NCBI GenBank assembly: GCA_025617745.1
Contig: CM046857.1
Span: 22,659,081 to 22,723,080 of the forward strand
From: Heliocidaris erythrogramma
Lineage: Eukaryota; Echinodermata; Echinoidea; Camarodonta; Echinometridae
Length of the DNA stretch: 64,000 nucleotides
Direction: 5' to 3'
The position numbers and the translations under genes are program-made. Positions 78 to 62,759 of the stretch are shown one piece after another (position 1 is the first letter of the stretch; each line of letters opens with the position of its first letter). A model generated the notes under the pieces. It saw nothing but the letters and a program-made list of their open reading frames with translations, made no database searches and had not been told where the DNA came from.

Positions 78-1269
78 GTAAGTCCTATAAAGTTTATACC
101 AGGATCATCAACATGATAATATGTTGAATGTGATGGAGGCATCGTTTCGAATTCGCCGACAAAGCCGTCTTACATTTTCGAAGAAGCAAGCGGAAGGGGG
201 GGGGGGGGGGGGGGGGGAACAGCTAGTCTAAACCTATTGGGTCATTACTACTTTTTTAATTAATGGCACTTACATTGTTAAATCTCTTTAGCGATTGAGT
301 ATACTAATCGTTTAGACTGCGCTGTAATAATCAAGGTGATAACGAGGTATGAGCCTTCATCTATTTCTCAATGGCCTGCAGTGCAGTCCTGTATGATGTC
401 TACAGCCTCGTCAAATCTGTCAATGAAACTGAACGACTTCGTTTCTTAATCATGTTGATAGCTTCTTTTTCTAAATTGTTTATCTTGTCAATCTATGTGC
501 AGTCATACAGACGGACCAATAAAGTCACCTGGACCAAGGAGGTTCAAACAGATGGAGTCTCAACTAACGATAATTAATGCAAACACCTGGCAGATTATAA
601 AGGATGTACAATTGAATTAATAAACTGCATTGAGTCTTTGAAGCGACGTCTGACGCCGCCAAAGTAAACGGGAAAGATTTAGAGATCTTTTGACATTTGA
701 ATATTTACGATGCGCAGTTAAATTCATAAATCGACAAACAGAGAAAGTGAATGTGCAGTTTCAATGTAAATAATTTCGATTTCATTCTGAAATTCCCCTC
801 CCTCAGGATGAACCATTTTTTTAGATATAGCCTTAAAAGTGTCACATGTGTGCCTCTTTAAGGGAAATTTTAACACCTTTCCGCTTAATTCCCATTATTA
901 AATTTGAATTCATACATTACCATCGTGAAAGATGGCTCTAGGAAATATAGCCAACCAAAGTAGTGGGCACAGTCAAGTCCAAAAATTGTCATCACAAATC
1001 TGGTATCTTTGGCACTAAATGTGTTCGCTTGAACCTTGTTATATCATTCATGTGCACTTTTTCGAAGTTACATTTGGGTCTGCGAAAACTAATTATCATT
1101 ACGACAGAATATCCTCCATTGTACTTAACCATGGTTATGCAATTAAACGGAATTTGATTTTTTTTCCTCTTTCGAAGAATGTTTTTGGAGAACGCATATA
1201 ATTATGTCATGTTTGTTGTGCATCAAAGCTGGCTTCAAAGGGAAGCTGTCTGCTATGACTTCATCTGTT

Positions 1270-1467
1270 TGAACCTGCTTGCCTGGACTAACATCGATTT
1301 CTCGATGGGCCTGGGCCCGTCAGCAGTAGGAACTGCATCCATCTCCTTCTCTACCTGAACATAGACCACATAATTGTACTTTGCAAGCAGTACTACCTTT
1401 ACGGTCACAGTGTTCTCACTTAGAGAATGACAAACGTCCACTATATCTGTAGTTGATGAAAACATTC
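1270..1467 (+). pseudogene. Most diverged copy of the DHCR7 exon start (unit 0)
   Basis: The segment TTGCCTGGACTAACATCGAT and TTCTCGATGG (about 1280-1308) resembles GCGTGGACCATCATCAAC / TTCTCGATGG of the real exon. Further on, CTTTACGGTCACAGTGTTCT (about 1398) resembles the TACGGTTACGTCACC stretch. The repeat then runs into AACATTCACCAACTGATTTC (1461-1480), the same intron sequence that precedes each later unit. About 70 extra bases relative to the other units suggest an insertion. It is the weakest of the copies. Confidence 0.45.
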
Positions 1468-1497
1468 ACCAACTGATTTCACCCTTTTTCTTCCCAG

Positions 1498-1590
1498 CAT
1501 TTCTTCAACAGGCGACCCGTTATCATCGCATGGACCATCATCAACTTCTTCGTGGCTTGCCAGTAGCACGATTTGTATGGTTACAGTCTA
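1498..1590 (+). pseudogene. Decayed duplicate of the DHCR7 exon start (unit 1)
   Basis: An acceptor-like tract (CCCTTTTTCTTCCCAG, ending at 1497) is followed by an in-frame copy of the next exon's first codons. It reads HFFNRRPVIIAWTIINFFVACQ and then a TAG stop, against [23 protein letters not shown] in the real exon. The copy keeps roughly 22 codons, lacks the rest of the 85-codon exon, and has no donor. It starts 175 bases upstream of unit 2. It could be included by mis-splicing, but that would truncate the protein. Confidence 0.8.
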
Positions 1591-1672
1591 CTCTGACTGA
1601 TTGTTGACAATATCCACAGTATCTGTAGTTCAAGTAAACATTCACCAGCTGATTTCACCTTCTTCTTTCTAG

Positions 1673-1770
1673 CATTTCTTCAACGGCCGACCTAGTATAG
1701 TCGCATGGACCAAAAGATCATCAACTTCTCCCTTGCTTGCAAGCAATATGAACTGAATGGTTACAGTATT
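1673..1770 (+). pseudogene. Decayed duplicate of the DHCR7 exon start (unit 2)
   Basis: A second acceptor-like tract (CACCTTCTTCTTTCTAG, ending at 1672) is followed by HFFNGRPSIVAWT. A short insertion (AAAAG after the ACC of the Thr codon) then breaks the frame, after which TCATCAACTTCTCCCTTGCT and TGCAAGCAATATGAACT still match the real exon. Its start is 176 bases upstream of the functional exon start at 1849, matching the 175-base step before it, so the units form a tandem array. Confidence 0.8.
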
Positions 1771-1848
1771 CTCTCCTTTAGCGTAGATGTGCCCAGTCTA
1801 TTTTGTTGACAGAAACATTCACCAACTAATTCCTCTTTCCCCTTCCAG

Positions 1849-2103
1849 CTTTTCTTCAACGGACGACCGGGTATCGTCGCGTGGACCATCATCAACTTCT
1901 CGATGGCTTGCAAGCAGTACGAGCTCTACGGTTACGTCACCAACTCCATGATCCTGGTCAATTTCCTGGAGGCCATCTATGTGGTAGATTACTTCTGGAA
2001 CGAGGCGTGGTACCTTCATACCATCGACATGCACCACGATCATTTTGGTTGGTACCTGGCCTGGGGTGACATGGTCTACCTGCCGTTCATGTATACCCTT
2101 CAG
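1849..2103 (+). CDS. DHCR7: 7-dehydrocholesterol reductase, internal exon
   Basis: This 255-base exon encodes 85 codons and is phase 0 at both ends (acceptor TTCCCCTTCCAG, donor CAG|GTGAAT). The translation begins [18 protein letters not shown], passes through a hydrophobic segment ([16 protein letters not shown], about residues 41-56 of the exon), then [20 protein letters not shown], and ends [11 protein letters not shown]. The [12 protein letters not shown] stretch is characteristic of DHCR7; the C14 reductases have a different sequence there. It lies in the multi-pass membrane core thought to form the sterol and NADPH pocket. The 5' end of this exon has been tandemly duplicated in the upstream intron. 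Confidence 0.95.
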
Positions 2104-2721: not shown

Positions 2722-3186
2722 TGCTTTTACTTGGTGTTCAACCCTGTCGAGCTCTCTTGGCCCATCTTTACCGCCATCTTCCTACTCGGAACCATCGGCT
2801 ACTACATCTTCCGGTCGGTCAACCGGCAGAAGGACTACTTCCGGCGCACGAACGGACAAGCCCCCATCTGGGGCGCCAAGCCCAAGTACATCGACGCCAC
2901 GTACACCAGCGGGGACGGCCAGGAGAGGAAGAGCAAGCTGTTACTCTCCGGCTGGTGGGGCATCACCCGGCACATGAACTACACCGGTGACCTGATGCAG
3001 GCAGCGGCCTGGTGCCTCTCCTGCGGGACAGGACACATCTTCCCGTACTACTACCTGGTTTTCATGACCATTCTGCTCATACACCGTTGCCGGCGGGACG
3101 AGGACCGCTGCTACGCCAAGTACGGCAAGTCCTGGGAGCTCTACATGAAGAAAGTGCCCTGCAGGCTTATACCTTACGTCTATTGA
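2722..3186 (+). CDS. DHCR7: 7-dehydrocholesterol reductase, terminal exon with stop codon
   Basis: The exon encodes 154 codons followed by TGA (3184-3186). It opens [16 protein letters not shown] and includes a membrane segment ([16 protein letters not shown]). The soluble NADPH-side loop follows ([20 protein letters not shown]), then [20 protein letters not shown] and a second hydrophobic stretch ([17 protein letters not shown]). The second ERG4/ERG24 family signature, [18 protein letters not shown], follows, and the protein ends near the usual PxRLIPYVY terminus. The GC content is clearly higher than in the flanking DNA, as expected for the only strongly selected coding sequence here. The reading frame is open and shows no damage, so the gene is probably functional. 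The symbol is assigned by protein wording, not by a database search. Confidence 0.96.
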
Positions 3187-3211: not shown

Positions 3212-3542
3212 AACCAACCCTATATCTAAACAAGTCCCAATTAATTTTTTCAGACTTGCTCCAGTAGGTAAGATCAGAAGCCTTAAACGGGCCAACGTTG
3301 TTGTTTTTTTGGTTGTTTCTTTTTTGAAGTAGCAGTCGAATACACTTCGGCCAAACGCACAACTTTCTTCACATAAGCCGATCGGGATCAAACTTTAAAT
3401 AAGTCACAGCTGAAACTCAGGACTCTGATTGGTTAACGCTAAAGGGGTCTGGATCAGATTATTCATTCAATCACCAAACATGCCCTACATTTTGTCAGCA
3501 AAACCTTCTATCCTGACCGAAAGGTTGGTCCACCAAACAAAT

Positions 3543-3676
3543 CGCTATATCATGGGCGATTGAGTTATGTTTCGTGAGATGGTTTTCACTTTATCATGGG
3601 CGATTGATTTATGTTGTGTTTAGATGGTTTTCGCTATATCATGGGCGATTGTGTTATGTTGCGTTTAGATGGTTAT
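3543..3676 (+). repeat. Three tandem copies of a 44-45 bp unit
   Basis: Each unit contains TATCATGGGCGATTG followed by a TTATGTT and a GAGATGGTTTT/TAGATGGTTTT segment. The three copies start near 3543, 3587 and 3632 and differ at several positions. No coding role is apparent. Confidence 0.8.
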
Positions 3677-12059: not shown

Positions 12060-12083
12060 GGGGGGGGGGGGGGGGGGGGGGGG
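12060..12083 (+). repeat. G homopolymer
   Basis: A run of about 24 G, ending in GCGTGGGGCC. Just downstream, GGATACGCCATTG is the end motif of the poly-G MITE type described at 26657-26883. Confidence 0.9.
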
Positions 12084-13174: not shown

Positions 13175-13278
13175 GGGGGGGGGGGGGGGGGGGGGGGGGG
13201 GTGTTAGAGGTGCATGGGGGTAGTAAAGGTGGTGGTGGTGTGGTGGTGCCGTGGGGGTAGCGGGGGGGGGGGGGGGGG
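13175..13278 (+). repeat. Paired G homopolymers flanking a GTGG-rich stretch
   Basis: G runs at 13175-13201 and 13261-13278 enclose a GTGGTGGTGGTG-type tract. The whole 100 bases is almost C-free on this strand and could fold as a G-quadruplex. Confidence 0.9.
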
Positions 13279-13279
13279 A

Positions 13280-13985
13280 CTGGCGGTATGCAACACTACA
13301 TGATGCCTCTTCCGAGCATTATTATAGCGTTCGAGTGCATAATTATATAAAAGTATGTCGCCGGTTCCTGGCTCAAAAATTACGTTCATATGAACATGAT
13401 GAACAAAGTTAATAGATTACCCTCAATATTATGTTATAATATTATGCTGCCAGTTGTCGCTCTTTTGTGGTTTCAAACCGTAAAAGGCTATAAATCAGCT
13501 TCGTATTAATAAGCTGCGTCTGCATTATTTTGTCACAATTAACGTAACCAGGAGTTTAAAAAGTGGGACCCTGCATGAGCGCAAATTATTCAGGAACATG
13601 GTATAATTTTAGTCTGTGTAACGTGTTGCGTTTCATTTTCATTGACGTAACATTTTAATACCATATGTTATAGCTCTCAAGAATTTTGAAGCAGCCATTA
13701 AACGTACAGATGCCATTCTGACAGACAGTGTAACGTTAGCGTACTTTCTTGGATTAGATATTGAAATGAGATATTAAATTGAATCCCCTAAAGGTATAAT
13801 TTATTAATGTTTCCATTATTTCATTCTTGAACATGATGGTTTTGAGGCCGTATATCTTTTACAGACATGGTAGATAAATAATATATTAACACATGGCGTC
13901 GTTTATTGCAGAGAACTCATGCACGCGTATCGCATGGACATGATAATCAGTGGCTTACCGTGGGTCCTTGCACTGAGGCTGCACT
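13280..13985. other. Intergenic DNA without supported features
   Basis: AT-rich sequence without a gene or repeat that I can define. Confidence 0.55.
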
Positions 13986-13989
13986 TGTG

Positions 13990-14217
13990 CCAAAGTGCGG
14001 AGGATAAGGGGGGGGGGGGCGGTCGTATAGATTAATAGATAGATAAAATGCGAAATAAAATGGCAATCGATTGAAGGAAGGGTGTGGTAGAGGGACGTAT
14101 CTCATTCCACCTCTCCCTTACTCTCCTTCTCTCTCTCTTTCCACCAGTCGGAGGGGGGGGGGGGGGGGGGGGGGCAGAGTGCACGTGCCCCCATTACCCC
14201 GTAACTAAACCACTGTG
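13990..14217 (+). mobile_element. Poly-G MITE family, copy A
   Basis: A G run (14008-14019) is followed by AAAATGCGAAATAAAATGGC, ATCGATTGA, GGTGTGGTAGAGG, a CT-rich tract and a second G run (14153-14174), ending GTAACTAAACCACTGTG. The same order of blocks occurs at 20562, 23431 and 26657. These poly-G elements often end in a CAGTGGCGTA-like sequence. Confidence 0.6.
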
Positions 14218-19080: not shown

Positions 19081-19359
19081 CGGGATACGCCACTAGGCGG
19101 CCGTGGGGAATGTCGGGATTGTGTAAGCCCCATTCACTTATCACAAAGTTTGAACGTCGAACTACTGTGATTACATTTCGGACTGCACGAAGCCGACCGA
19201 ATCTCGCACGAGAGCTCGATCGCAGGCTGAGCGTGCATGTTGCGCGGCGACCAGTCTGTCCGAAGTTTGCGCCCCGCGGGGCAATGGCATGATCAGGTAA
19301 CGATCACGGGTGCGCTTTCGCGGCATAAAAACGTCCACAATCTGCGGTTGAGTATCCCT
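19081..19359 (-). mobile_element. TTAA-flanked MITE with GGGATAC ends, copy 1
   Basis: TTAA (19077-19080) is followed by CGGGATACGCCACTAGGCGG. The other end is GGTTGAGTATCCCT followed by TTCA, a decayed TTAA. The interior has GCGGCGACCAGTCTGTCCG and GCCCCGCGGGGCAATGGCA. It is 279 bases and is inverted relative to copy 2 at 19858-20148. TTAA target sites and short GGGATAC-type ends fit the piggyBac class, but no transposase is present. Confidence 0.75.
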
Positions 19360-19365
19360 TTCAAG

Positions 19366-19853
19366 GTTCTCTAAAAGCTACATAACCCAGCCTCCCAACG
19401 TTCCACCTGAGAGCTACATCTGCACTGTGATGTTTAGGATTGGACATGGGGACGGTCAAACTCCTCTTTTAGAAGAAAAAAAAAAAGATAATTCAAATTC
19501 TAATTATCTTTTAGAGCTAAAAGTCTTATATTTCAGGAAAATATAAAATATACCCCACTACTCCCCTCCCCCTCCCCTTCTTTCAGGCCCAGGAAAATTA
19601 TATTTTTTTTAATTAATTTTTTTTATTGTTTTATTGTTTTATGTATTTATTTATATATTTTTTTTTTTGGGGGGGGGGGGATTCAATGACGGTAAATATT
19701 CACCCCCCTTATGATTATCTGAGATCCGCCTCTGTTATTTAAAGCCCACCGCATCTATACGATCGACTGCGATCCGATTTGGGAAATAAATCGTAATAGC
19801 ATATTCACCAAATAAAATGACCCTGATTCTGGTTCTGAACAATGATAGGAATA
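19366..19853. other. Spacer between two inverted MITE copies
   Basis: About 490 bases of AT-rich DNA with a C/T-rich patch (19555-19590), a poly-T tract and a G run (19670-19680). No gene is seen. Confidence 0.6.
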
Positions 19854-19857
19854 TTAA

Positions 19858-20148
19858 AGGGATACTCAACCGCAGATTGTGGACATTTTTATGCCGCGAG
19901 AGGGCACCGTGATCGTTACCTGATCGTGCCGTTGCCCCGCGGGGCGCAGACTTCGGCCATACTGGTCGCCGCACAACATGCACGCTCCGCCTGAGCTCGA
20001 GCTCTCGCGCGAGATTCGTTCGGCTTCGTGCAATCCGAAATGTAATCCCAGCAGTCCGACGGACGCGTTCGACGCACAAACTTTGTGTACGAGTGAACGG
20101 GGCCTACGCAATCATGACTTTCCCCACGGCCAATAGTGGCGTATCCCT
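19858..20148 (+). mobile_element. TTAA-flanked MITE with AGGGATAC ends, copy 2
   Basis: TTAA (19854-19857) then AGGGATACTCAACCGCAGAT at the left, and AATAGTGGCGTATCCCT then TTAA (20149-20152) at the right. This copy has both perfect TTAA duplications and is 291 bases. It is GC-rich and has a palindromic GCCCCGCGGGGC core. The 114-codon open frame over it is a by-product, since the opposite copy yields a similar one. Confidence 0.85.
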
Positions 20149-22059: not shown

Positions 22060-23240
22060 TACAAATTGAACAGTGCAAACAATATTTTTAATTTCTGCCG
22101 TATGAGTTAAAGGTTCGACGAACGCTGGTAATGACGCAATCGAAAAGTCGCCTCTTGTCAGCCAGGCATAAGATTTTCACTTGAAGGATGCAATTATCAC
22201 ACCTTCATAATCATGATAATTCTTAAGCCATACTAAGCACTTTAAATGCAAAATAATATCTGACGCATTAAAAATACATTGTTATATCGAACAAGTGCTT
22301 ATAAACGCGGAGTCATTTGCCTGCCGTATAGGACTCCGTCAGACAAAAGCCGCTCTCTTTCGGGAGGATATCATACAAAATGCACATGAAAACGTAACAC
22401 CGATTTTTACTGGCGCATGCACTAATTTCTTGTATATGCTTGATTAGCGTATAGGCAATAACGCAATCGAACAGACGTTTCGTGAGCAACAGACATTGGT
22501 CAAGGTCATTGAATTTGGGCATTGGTGATTTATGATAGTTAGTGATATACTGGATGACGTATGCTGCTCACTTCTTTATTAATTAAGGACTATGATTCGA
22601 AGTCATGGTCAACGTATTCTTTCATCTATTATTTATATTTATTTATACGGTTATTGGTTCATGTATCTTGTTAATTTGAATATCAACCTATAACTGCTCT
22701 GACTTTGTTTTACCGTGGGGTTCTCCCGAACAGTATTTTGCAAACCATTGATGTCATAAGACACTTACACCGTTAAGACTTCAACGTCAAGAATTGCTTT
22801 AAGCATGTTGAGTCGCTACCCCTTCAACCCACACTCCTTCGAAGATAGGATGACAGCCGTGGAGGTTCTCCAGAATTCAAGAAATCCATTACGCAAAGGT
22901 AAAACTGAAAGTATCGGTAAACGAACTCGGCATCGCGTGTCACTGGGGTTTTAACCACGACTGTTTTGAGGAAAATACGAATGGAGAAGGAAACGATAGA
23001 AGAGAAAACACACAAAAAGAGTCAAAGGGGGCAACGCACTAAGCTTAGCCTTCCGATCTAGGTGTGCCCCAATTAAAGCGGTAACACGACGATTGCGAGC
23101 CTCAAAAGGGAATATGTGAACCGAATGATGTAAAACTAACCCCATTTTAACGCCTGAAAGAAGTGACCTTTCGCTCGCTTGCCTGGCATTAATGCACCCT
23201 GACAGACTCACTGTTGCATCTTTACCTCAAGGGGCTAACA
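22060..23240. other. Intergenic DNA without supported features
   Basis: Several open frames of 60-90 codons occur on the - strand (22313-23211) with no recognisable domain. I see no RNA gene. Confidence 0.5.
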
Positions 23241-23454: not shown

Positions 23455-23485
<31 letters not shown>

Positions 23486-39494: not shown

Positions 39495-41188
39495 CACTGT
39501 TGGTCATAATGTTAGCATAATTCGTATTTTCATAGTCATCCGTTGATTTAATCATATTTAAAAGCCTAAATAGATAATATTGACCAGATTCATTGATTAC
39601 ATAATGATTTTGTATTGTCGAGGTAAAAGTCGGTCAAGTGAAACATTCCATAACGTGGCCTATCTTATTCTTTGGTGCTATGAAAGGCGGAGCCTCCTTT
39701 CTGCTGTTGTTTTGCTGTCCATTTCGTGCAGAAAGCCTACGTGTGTTAACAGCCCGTTTTCAGAGTTAGCTTGATCAATTCCTACCAAATTTGGTACATT
39801 GATTCCTTACACTATGCCTCGCCCAACGGCACTTGCAATTCGTCAGAGGGTCCTTGCACTCCGACGGAATGGACGGACACAGGCCCAGATTGCAGATATT
39901 CTTGGACTATCGCAGAGTTGTGTGTGTCGCATCCTCAGAAGACATCGAGAGGCGGGTACTTTGAGTCCAGAGAGATCTACAGGTCGACCACGAAGAACAT
40001 CCGCACGGGATGACCGTCAACTGCTGAACATGTGCCGTAGGAACCGAAGAATGCCAGCGAGTCGTCTTTGCCACTTGTGGAGGAGGCACTTCGGAGTGAA
40101 CGTTTCACGGGAAACCGTAAACAGGAGACTTGTCCAACATGGCTACAGAGCTTGGCGAATGACCAAGGTTCCACGTCTCACTGTTCGCCACCGGGTTGCT
40201 CGACTCCAGTGGGCTAGGAGGCACAGGAGATGGCAGCTTGGTCACTGGCGCCATGTAATCTTCACTGATGAAAGCCGGTACATCCTTGACCTCACCGATG
40301 GGAGGCAGAGGGTTCGACGATTGTGGGGCGAGAACCTCCGTAATGACTGTGTCCAGGAAACCAATCAAGCGGGTGGAGGCTCAGTGATGGTATGGGTCGG
40401 AATATGTTATGGCGGAAAAACGCCATTGGCTGCACCTGAAGGAAACGTCAACGCCGTCGTGTACCGCGATATCCTGGAACGCCATTGTCTTCCATACGCG
40501 AGAAGGGTATATGGCAATAACTTTCAGCTCCAAGACGACAACGCTCGATCACATAGGGCACGTCTGGTGAGGGAAATCCTTGACGCAGAGGACGTGCAGC
40601 AGATGCCTTGGCCTGCCTGTTCCCCCGACATGAACCCCCATTGAGCACGCCTGGGATGCATTGGGCCGTGCCATCAATGAGAGAAACAATCATCCTCAAA
40701 ATGTGCAGGAGTTAGCCCAGGCACTGACCGAAGAGTGGGATGCACTGCCCTTGAACACCATCAACAACCTTGTGGACAGTATGCCACGGCGTGTGGAGGC
40801 ACTGGTGCGTGCCAGAGGTGGCCATACCAGGTACTAAGTGACCCAACAAGATTAAAAAGAAGAACACTTCCCTTCAATCATCAAAAGATCCCAAGATTTT
40901 ATTTTTCACGATAAAATTATCATGGTTAAACATTTACCAAAAACGATACATTTTTCCAGGAATCCAAGGTCTGGATTATTGTGTTTGTCAAAAGTGGTTT
41001 AAACCAGTGTATAAAGTTTGTATGAATTAATTTTTGTCTTATATTTTTTATTTCATATGTTGAGAACAGATTTATCAATAAAATCGGTGAAGATATAAGC
41101 TTTATTTTGCAAAAAAATGACTCGTATTGTTGTCAATAGTGTACGAAAGGTAGGAAAAAAAATTATGCTACCATTATGACCAACAGTG
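39495..41188 (+). mobile_element. Tc1-type DNA transposon, nearly complete
   Basis: The left end CACTGTTGGTCATAATGTTA (39495) and the right end ACCATTATGACCAACAGTG (to 41188) are inverted repeats of about 28 bases (they differ at G/T in the middle) and are flanked by the TA target duplication (39493-39494 and 41189-41190). The total is 1694 bases, with one transposase gene inside, the normal size for Tc1 elements. A truncated close relative at 28861-29229 shows that the family has moved in this genome. The element is disabled by a frameshift in its transposase. Confidence 0.95.
39814..40837 (+). pseudogene. Tc1 family (DD34E) transposase, frameshifted
   Basis: The product would be a cut-and-paste transposase of about 340 residues, acting in the nucleus on the inverted ends of its own element. 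I start it at the ATG opening MPRPTALAIRQRV. The N-terminal half has two helix-turn-helix units (RTQAQIADILGLSQSCVCRI and the segment around VSRETVNRRL) joined by a GRPR-type hook (STGRPRR). The catalytic residues are D in VIFTDESRY, D in LQDDNARSH, and E in a downstream NPIEHAWD, with 34 residues between the last two. An extra C in a five-C run (40635-40639) shifts the frame just before that Glu, so the present frame stops at 40644 after SPDMNPH. Downstream the +1 frame continues with EHAWDALGRAINERN to a TAA at 40835-40837. All other coding sequence looks sound, so the break is likely recent, or an assembly error in a homopolymer. Confidence 0.93.
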
Positions 41189-43147: not shown

Positions 43148-44174
43148 CATATTTATTTATTTATTTATTTCTGATATTTATACAGGGTGGCTCATATCAC
43201 CAATTTGGTGGTCTTCCATGAGGCCCTGTTTGCTAACAATAAAACAAATAACATCAACAATAATCAATATATATAAATACACAAGCATAAACACGTATAA
43301 TACACATTAATCGGTATCCTCATTAGTTAAGTAATCATTCAGTAATATTCATTGACTATTTACAAGAATTTTCGAATCGAATTTTAAATTAAGGATTATT
43401 AGCATTGTAAACTGTGAAATAATCAAATTAAAATATGGATGATAACCACACATCAAAATGAGGGGAAAATAATTAATTAACAACACATATACCAAAGAAG
43501 TTGCTATGCATAATATCCCCATACAGTTCACAGCTTACATCTCCTCTGCAGATAACAGAGCTTTTAGAGTGTATTTGAAACTGTTTAAAGTAGGCAACAT
43601 TTTGATAGAAGTTTCAAGTTGGTTCCATACTGCAATTCCACATATTAGGGGACTATGTTTGTATGTGTCCGTCCTAAAAAGGTACACGCAATGTATCTCT
43701 TACAGCATGTCTTGTGCTGTGATCATGTAGAGAGCTGACATGTTGTAAATCTTTTTTTAAGTATTCTTGTGCCACGCCATGCATTGCTTTATACATCATC
43801 ACTGCACGTCCAAACTGGAAACGTGTCTGAATAGGCATCCAACCTAACCGACTAAACATATCTTTTGAGGATACATCGAATCCTTCTCCCAACACTATAC
43901 GGGCAGCCCGTTTCTGAACCTTTTGTAGTTTAATAGTTTGTCTTTGAAATCTTTCGGACCAAACAGAGGAACAATAATCAAAATGAGGAAGGACGATGGA
44001 ATTATATAGAAGTTTCAGAGACCTAGTTGGAACATAACTAATATGAACACGATTGCACGGGTAACGCCATGTGCTTTCGCGCATTGCATATCTCACTGTC
44101 GATAAATATAGTTCGCATACATCAATTTCCTTTCTAAAGATAATATGCCGGAAATGAGAGTTGAACACTCAATC
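43148..44174 (-). mobile_element. 5'-truncated non-LTR retrotransposon (LINE), 3' part
   Basis: On the - strand the end of a reverse-transcriptase frame (43535-44168) is followed by about 370 bases of 3' untranslated sequence. This includes GGTGATATGAGCCACCCTG and ends in (AAAT)n at about 43148-43168. 5' truncation and a short simple-repeat tail are typical of LINE insertion. It begins 10 bases from the foldback element, so one may have inserted beside the other. Confidence 0.85.
43535..44168 (-). pseudogene. Non-LTR reverse transcriptase, C-terminal fragment, frameshifted
   Basis: The frame contains SLKLLYNSIVLPHFDYCSSV followed by WSERFQRQTIKLQKVQKRAA and RIVLG. This is the thumb/post-RT region found near the C-terminus of CR1/L2/jockey-type LINE ORF2 proteins. 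It then shows FSRLGWMPIQTRFQ and MYKAMHGVAQEYL. After DTLRVPF a single extra T shifts the frame. The next frame continues RTDTYKHSPLICGIAVWNQL to a TAA at 43535-43537, the usual end of such proteins. The catalytic YADD part and the endonuclease domain are missing, so it is inactive. The exact clade cannot be set by eye. Confidence 0.85.
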
Positions 44175-61674: not shown

Positions 61675-62231
61675 ATGGTGATGATGATAATGGTGATGAT
61701 AAAGATGATATAATGATGATGGTTATAATGAGTACGATGATAACTATAATGGTGATGGTGATGATATAATAATAATAGCGATGATGATCATGACAGTGAT
61801 GATAATAATGATGATGATGATGATGTAATGATGATTATGATGGTGATGATAATCATGATAATGAAGGGGATAATGATGAAGATTGATGATGTGATAATGA
61901 TGATGATAATGGTGATGGTGATTATGAAGATGATTGATGATATAATGATGATGATGGTGATAATGATGGGGATAATGGTGATGACCATGACTGCAATGAC
62001 AGTGACCTTAACCATGCCAAATATGAAAGAGAAATCACATTTCGTTATGAAGATACGACCATAAGTTGATTTGTACAAAATGGCGCCTAGATGACGTCAC
62101 GATAACCTGATGACCTTGACAAATATGTGGGAACTTGACCTTCTTAGGACCGATGACTGACGAAAATTTGAAGATAATTGAGTAAGCCAATTTTGAGAAA
62201 TTGTGATATCAATAGGACTAATGATATTGCA
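61675..62231 (+). repeat. GAT-rich tandem duplication, unit 1
   Basis: A (GAT)n-like tract (61675-61980) and a unique part (ACTGCAATGACAGTGACCTT, CAAAATGGCGCCTAGATGAC, GATATTGCAG) repeat at 62232-62759 with an offset of 526 bases. Confidence 0.92.
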
Positions 62232-62759
62232 GGATGATGATAATGGTGATAATGATAAAGATGATATAATGATGATGGTGATGATATAATAATAATAGCG
62301 ATGATGATCATGACAGTGATGATAATAATGATGATGATGATGTAATGATGATTATGATGGTGATGATAATCATGATAATGAAGGGGATAATGATGAAGAT
62401 TAATGATGTGATAATGATGATGATTATGGTGATGGTGATTATGAAGATGATTGATGATATAATGATGATGATGGTGATAATGATGATAATGATGGGGATA
62501 ATGGTGATGACCATGACTGCACTGACAGTGACCTTAACCATGCCAAATATGAAAGAGAAATCACATTTCGTTATGAAGATACGACTATAAGTTGATTTGT
62601 ACAAAATGGCGCCTAGATGACGTCATGATAACCTGATGACCCTGAAAAAGATGTGGAAACTTGACCTTATTAGGACCGATGACTGACGAAAATTTGAAGA
62701 TAATTGAGTAGGCCAATTTTGAGAAGTTGTGATATTAAATAGGACTAATGATATTGCAG
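62232..62759 (+). repeat. GAT-rich tandem duplication, unit 2
   Basis: Second copy, with only a few substitutions in the unique part and a shorter GAT tract. The paired poly-Met/Ile frames (61828-62064 and 62345-62590) arise from the GAT tracts and share an ending because of the duplication. Confidence 0.92.

Follow-up and report, generated by a model that had tools for sequence, protein, structure and literature searches.

Intragenic duplication is reportedly a source of altered intron–exon structure. A tandem genomic duplication across an intron–exon boundary has been described in the potato RdRp gene, where the duplicated segment joins the last stretch of an intron to the 5′ portion of the exon that follows, and the acceptor, the pyrimidine tract and the branch site were copied with it (PMC4974935). 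A second known system, that of tandemly duplicated and mutually exclusive exons, likewise places exon copies one after the other within the parent gene (PMC9013439). The array described here, in a sterol reductase gene of Heliocidaris erythrogramma, shares these features with the two systems. No report of the array itself was found among the matches listed from the open-licence literature. The stretch of DNA that was analysed spans 64,000 nucleotides and is called the window throughout. The best explanation of the array, which we regard as very probable, is that a 3′ splice-site region was duplicated in tandem more than once and the copies then decayed, with the last one alone still working.

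The sterol reductase gene and its working exons

The last three exons of the gene lie at the start of the window, within 3.2 kb and all on the + strand. The upstream exon is represented by its 3′ part (1–77), which ends in ..MFDFK and is followed by a gtaagt donor at 78 (rank 52 of 3475 GTs); its start was placed ~46 bases outside the window by tblastn with bacterial relatives. The 25-residue piece encoded by bases 3–77 matched the Pfam family ERG4_ERG24 at 3e-05 with 23.4 bits, which is under the 27-bit curated cut-off. The middle exon (1849–2103, 85 codons), hereafter the true exon, is intact and DHCR7-type, and its donor at 2104 ranked 26th of 3475 GTs. It matched ERG4_ERG24 at 4.6e-23 and PDB entry 4quv_A at 1.5e-24, and its 85 residues are 71–75% identical to those of seven bacterial relatives. 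The final coding exon, which includes the stop (2722–3186), matched the same family at 9.7e-49 and 4quv_A at 1e-37. The two larger encoded pieces thus both match 4quv, a solved delta(14)-sterol reductase, and the encoded protein belongs to the ERG4-ERG24 sterol reductase family. In keeping with the label used in an initial annotation of this DNA, we take the gene to be DHCR7 rather than another member of the family. Close downstream of the gene, a 45-base unit is repeated three times in tandem (3542–3674).

Splice sites on the + strand of the window were ranked with a simple generic frequency matrix, which is crude, since it places the last exon's acceptor no higher than 66th of 3535 AGs. On this scale, the acceptor of the true exon, before 1849, ranked fourth. 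Two further acceptors in the same intron, before 1498 and 1673, ranked 6th and 16th, and these belong to the array.

Tandem units across the intron–exon border

Three units of ~176 bases, each made up of the end of the intron and 87 bases from the start of the exon, lie head to tail on the + strand and are here called U1, U2 and U3, the last of which contains the true exon. The intron tail of U1 (1437–1497) holds a CTGAT, which we take to be a branch-like motif, together with a pyrimidine tract and an AG, while the intron tails and acceptors of U2 and U3 span 1613–1672 and 1790–1848. The exon heads that follow occupy 1498–1584 in U1 (29 codons), 1673–1764 in U2, which carries a 5-base insertion, and 1849–1935 in the true exon; the predicted residues at the head start are HFFNRRPVIIAWT in U1 and HFFNGRPSIVAWT in U2. 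The initial annotation had named acceptors at 1497, 1672 and 1848, these being the last G of each AG, and this agrees with first exon bases at 1498, 1673 and 1849 and a spacing of 175 and 176 bases. The region from 1259 to 1848 makes up about one third of the 1771-base intron.

Alignment of the three units, which the initial annotation had proposed as a way to check its claim of a tandem duplication in a DHCR7-type gene, gave similarity far above chance level. Local alignment scores were 184 for U1–U2, 152 for U1–U3 and 146 for U2–U3, and the top scores among 500 dinucleotide shuffles per pair were 35, 38 and 36, respectively. Identity in the exon heads was 79.3% (U1–U2), 80.5% (U1–U3) and 82.8% (U2–U3), with the 5-base insertion of U2 excluded, and identity over aligned bases of the intron tails was 80.0%, 70.0% and 65.9% in the same order. 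A 58-base repeat family within the array has starts spaced 176, 180 and 171 bases apart. In a tblastn search at E up to 0.01, in which five of the seven bacterial relatives served as queries, all five matched U1 and two matched U2. An assembly error or a chance similarity is extremely improbable as an explanation: the copies differ by 17–34%, unlike an assembly duplicate, the similarity among U1–U3 lies far above the shuffles, and the older pieces described below are supported by a profile search. A genome-wide DNA search (1.06 Gb, 26 contigs), which was a single search that scores the best candidates only and skips very common words, gave a match at this locus only.

The units also share a breakpoint. 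Past the base equivalent to 1935, the upstream copies (U1, U2 and an older remnant, U0) enter intron sequence through a junction that they share; the true exon fits a junction model built from U0, U1 and U2 only up to 1935. Intron end and exon start are thus repeated head to tail with one junction, which is a tandem duplication spanning the intron–exon border. As the repeated part stops at 1935, the upstream copies lack the remainder of the exon and its donor. No GT among the top 10% of the 3475 ranked with the generic matrix lies from 849 to 2065, so the copies are unlikely to be internal exons, and the statement in the initial annotation that they have no donor is supported as regards a good donor. 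By the same ranking, with its generic matrix, an intron gain of the potato type, in which the upstream exonic copy supplies the donor, finds no support at this locus.

Both upstream copies are broken in their reading frames, as had been noticed from the sequence at the outset. The reading frame of U1 is interrupted by a TAG at 1564, and in U2 the 5-base insertion follows ..AWT, after which the reading runs to a TGA at 1754. Among the true exon and the seven bacterial relatives, 16 of the 29 head residues are invariant across the eight sequences; U1 differs at five of these 16 (L1H, G5R, G8V, S18F and a stop at Q23) and U2 at two (L1H and G8S). Changes unique to one unit fell at codon positions 1, 2 and 3 in the numbers 6, 2 and 0 for U1 (n = 8), 2, 0 and 4 for U2 (n = 6) and 0, 1 and 4 for U3, and four exon-head sites are three-state among the units. 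The initial annotation had described the changes as falling at coding positions. The codon pattern clearly points to such decay in U1; in U2 decay is less clear and would rest mainly on the 5-base insertion and the two changes at invariant residues.

The descent of the copies was considered from the same sites. Residue 1 is H in both U1 and U2, where the true exon and all seven bacterial relatives have L. This derived change and the closer intron tails of the two copies suggest that U1 and U2 probably stem from one upstream unit that was already decayed or free of constraint. In contrast to the intron tails, the exon heads, taken by themselves, place U2 a little closer to U3 than to U1.

These patterns bear on the reading that the copies were formerly coding, as mutually exclusive or alternative-acceptor exon starts, and died later. 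Third positions account for 11 of the 15 differences between U2 and U3 (p 0.0018 against one third), and nine of the 13 changed codons are synonymous. The distance of 351 bases between U1 and U3 is a multiple of 3, and use of the site at 1498 would preserve the frame were it not for the stop. However, neither of the single steps (175 and 176) is divisible by 3, none of the copies is a complete exon, since each ends at the equivalent of 1935 with no good donor, and the H at residue 1 in both U1 and U2 suggests that constraint was lost before they split. The third-position excess between U2 and U3 is expected in any case since U3 evolves under constraint; of the six changes unique to U2, four are at third positions. 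We consider a coding past of this kind very unlikely. Full alternative or mutually exclusive exons were rejected as a separate candidate, given the missing good donor, the cut at 1935, the stop at 1564 and the frameshift in U2.

Under repeated duplication and decay, the explanation we prefer, a segment of ~176 bases, which begins ~90 bases inside the intron and ends at base 87 of the exon (1935), would have been duplicated in place more than once, presumably by unequal exchange or slippage. The upstream copies would then have turned into intron and decayed, the older ones presumably lying further upstream. The downstream copy alone would have stayed functional because it alone is joined to the exon remainder and the donor.

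Older remains upstream and the rest of the window

A profile of the unit, built from U1–U3, was searched on both strands of the window with nhmmer. The first three matches after U1–U3 themselves all lie in this intron on the + strand, and the best match elsewhere in the 64 kb reached only E 3.2. The nearest of the three (1381–1421, 12.4 bits, E 0.00045), here called U0, comprises the end of an exon head and the unit junction and sits in the 176-base register; with the true exon alone as the query, 1380–1409 was found at E 0.41. The next (1279–1366, 15.3 bits, E 6.1e-05) is an old exon-head fossil. Its profile alignment continues across the unit junction, but the junction model by itself yielded nothing significant there (E 8.1 at 1321–1338); the true exon alone as query found 1279–1335 at E 0.034. 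This piece is ~71 bases out of the 176-base register, such a shift as a deletion between it and the 1381 piece would give. The initial annotation had proposed a fourth, more diverged unit at around 1270–1467; diverged remains do exist there, although they are better described as these two pieces.

The third match is an addition to the units named initially. It is a probable oldest fossil copy at 339–439 (+ strand), equivalent to exon positions 23–116, found with the exon query at E 0.0045 over 64 kb. The unit profile matched 343–406 at 6.3 bits, with E 0.034 across the 64 kb, a score reached by none of 1000 shuffles of 79–1436, the best + strand shuffle giving 3.6. Since this piece runs beyond the 1935 breakpoint, it is probably a separate event, if real. 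A 74-residue open frame (353–574) starts in this oldest exon-like piece (region 339–577); it is accompanied by an acceptor-like AG before 503, which ranks 170th of 3535, and by an AATAAA at 619. As a real exon this frame found no support, its best Pfam match (E 0.15) falling short of significance.

The older pieces are weaker by pairwise alignment than the profile suggests. For 1260–1436, the scores against U1, U2 and U3 were 36, 40 and 40, which were equalled or exceeded 4, 0 and 0 times in 500 shuffles; for 1230–1345, they were 26, 30 and 39, equalled or exceeded 10, 5 and 0 times in 500. A model of the intron tail and exon start recovered U1–U3 in the window, with the next best match at E 1.1 on the opposite strand (32224), and no acceptor region was recognisable with it for the older copies. 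A good acceptor-like site before 1178, upstream of the 1279 fossil, ranks 18th of 3535 AGs with a predicted stop seven codons on, and is at most a candidate fossil acceptor. Another acceptor-like site, before 807, ranks 28th of 3535.

Other parts of the locus did not yield further copies. The unit profile matched the stretch 507–536 at no better than E 28, and no fossils were found in the 20 kb upstream (best E 3.1). No second copies of 3–77, 1936–2103 or 2722–3186 were present in the window (lowest second-match E 3.9, 7.2 and 7.2, respectively), nor was there a second copy of the exon stretches 13965–14200, 19262–19570, 19955–20077 and 22722–23186 of the 24 kb context (lowest E 0.4). Among viral contigs, none of five pattern matches was confirmed as a relative of the exon.

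Elsewhere in the window, a Tc1/mariner-type transposase open frame lies at 39775–40644, with HTH_Tnp_Tc3_2 (2.1e-16) and DDE_3 (8.2e-09) matches within 39802–40641. An open frame of 164 residues on the − strand (43674–44168) is, we presume, reverse-transcriptase-like in appearance; no Pfam family matched bases 43677–44168 at E 0.01. An ATG/GAT-repeat-rich stretch is present twice at 61753–62738, with the copies 517–526 bases apart and identities of 86% over 248 bases and 94% over 271. The tandem-repeat list holds nine + strand runs of at least 20 G, such as 196–217, 12060–12083, 13175–13201 and 23460–23485. A scan of the window for Rfam families (gathering score) and tRNAs returned no matches.

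Upstream acceptors and comparison with known systems

The well-scoring upstream acceptors raise the possibility that they are kept as an unproductive-splicing switch, in which use of 1498 or 1673 would lead to an early stop and nonsense-mediated decay (NMD) and so tune sterol reductase output. Splicing to these sites is predicted to give exons of 606 and 431 bases, with the stops (1564 and 1754) well upstream of the last exon junction, at distances of 537 and 347 bases. A stop 50–55 bases or more before the last exon junction marks a transcript for NMD, and by this rule transcripts from both acceptors would likely be NMD targets. Along with the stop positions, the ranks of 6 and 16 among 3535 AGs favor such a switch.

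Substitutions in the acceptor module were compared with those in the flanks. Changes in the module were transitions only, with p 0.027 for U1–U3, 0.0007 for U2–U3 and 0.23 for U1–U2. Pyrimidine–pyrimidine against pyrimidine–purine changes numbered 6:0 in the module and 6:14 in the flanks for U1–U3 (p 0.004) and 7:0 against 2:18 for U2–U3 (p 4e-05), both being comparisons that carry the constraint of the true acceptor itself. For U1–U2, the changes were likewise pyrimidine-only in the module (3:0 against 6:12 in the flanks), which favors a switch marginally (p 0.063). Constraint on the copies' pyrimidine tracts, first suggested by these pairwise changes, was not borne out by a lineage-aware count of pyrimidine-to-purine changes on the U1 and U2 branches (module 0/18, flanks 3/67, p 0.49; a small sample). 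Total change was also alike, at 3/20 in the module and 24/124 in the flanks, and the older copies have no recognised acceptor region, both of which argue against a switch.

In simulations, a neutral copy that started U3-like and took 0.2 changes per site matched or exceeded the acceptor score of U2 in 0.325 of the runs and that of U1 in 0.098. The survival of good scores in both upstream acceptors is somewhat unusual under neutrality, and neutral decay may be enough to explain them. The initial annotation had held that at least two competing acceptors were kept: the sequences are indeed present, although selection on them lacks support in the lineage-aware count. Aberrant splicing or a decoy role, which it had also raised, is no more than a possibility, as the good scores come from a crude matrix. 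We consider a selected switch unlikely. A related and slightly less likely proposal is that the array is a self-made unproductive-splicing device, in which the number of units and their decay tune sterol reductase output. If so, serial duplication would have supplied extra acceptors in competition with the true one, each use leading to an early stop and NMD.

Repeated duplication followed by decay remains our preferred explanation, and the points that weigh against it are the acceptor ranks of 6 and 16, the transitions-only changes in the module, the third-position bias between U2 and U3 and the U2 head lying nearer to U3. Under it, the acceptor before 1849 would be the one in use and the upstream acceptors would be latent, with rare use at most presumed. 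The upstream copies are most likely without function, as harmless leftovers.

The array offers a readable fossil series at one splice site, with five repeats, perhaps a sixth, counting the true exon, of apparently different ages. It illustrates how copies of its own 3′ end can lengthen an intron next to an exon that is left intact, and it serves as a natural test case for the way in which a row of several good acceptors is used or passed over. Compared with mutually exclusive exons, the copies here cover no more than the initial 87 of the 255 exon bases, have no donor and contain a stop or a frameshift. In potato RdRp, a cryptic donor in the upstream copy gave rise to a new spliced intron (PMC4974935), whereas the sterol reductase array has no good donor and several diverged, broken copies, and only the intron grew. 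The type of event is already known from potato, and this array is an unusually clear example of it, in the form of a decayed series.
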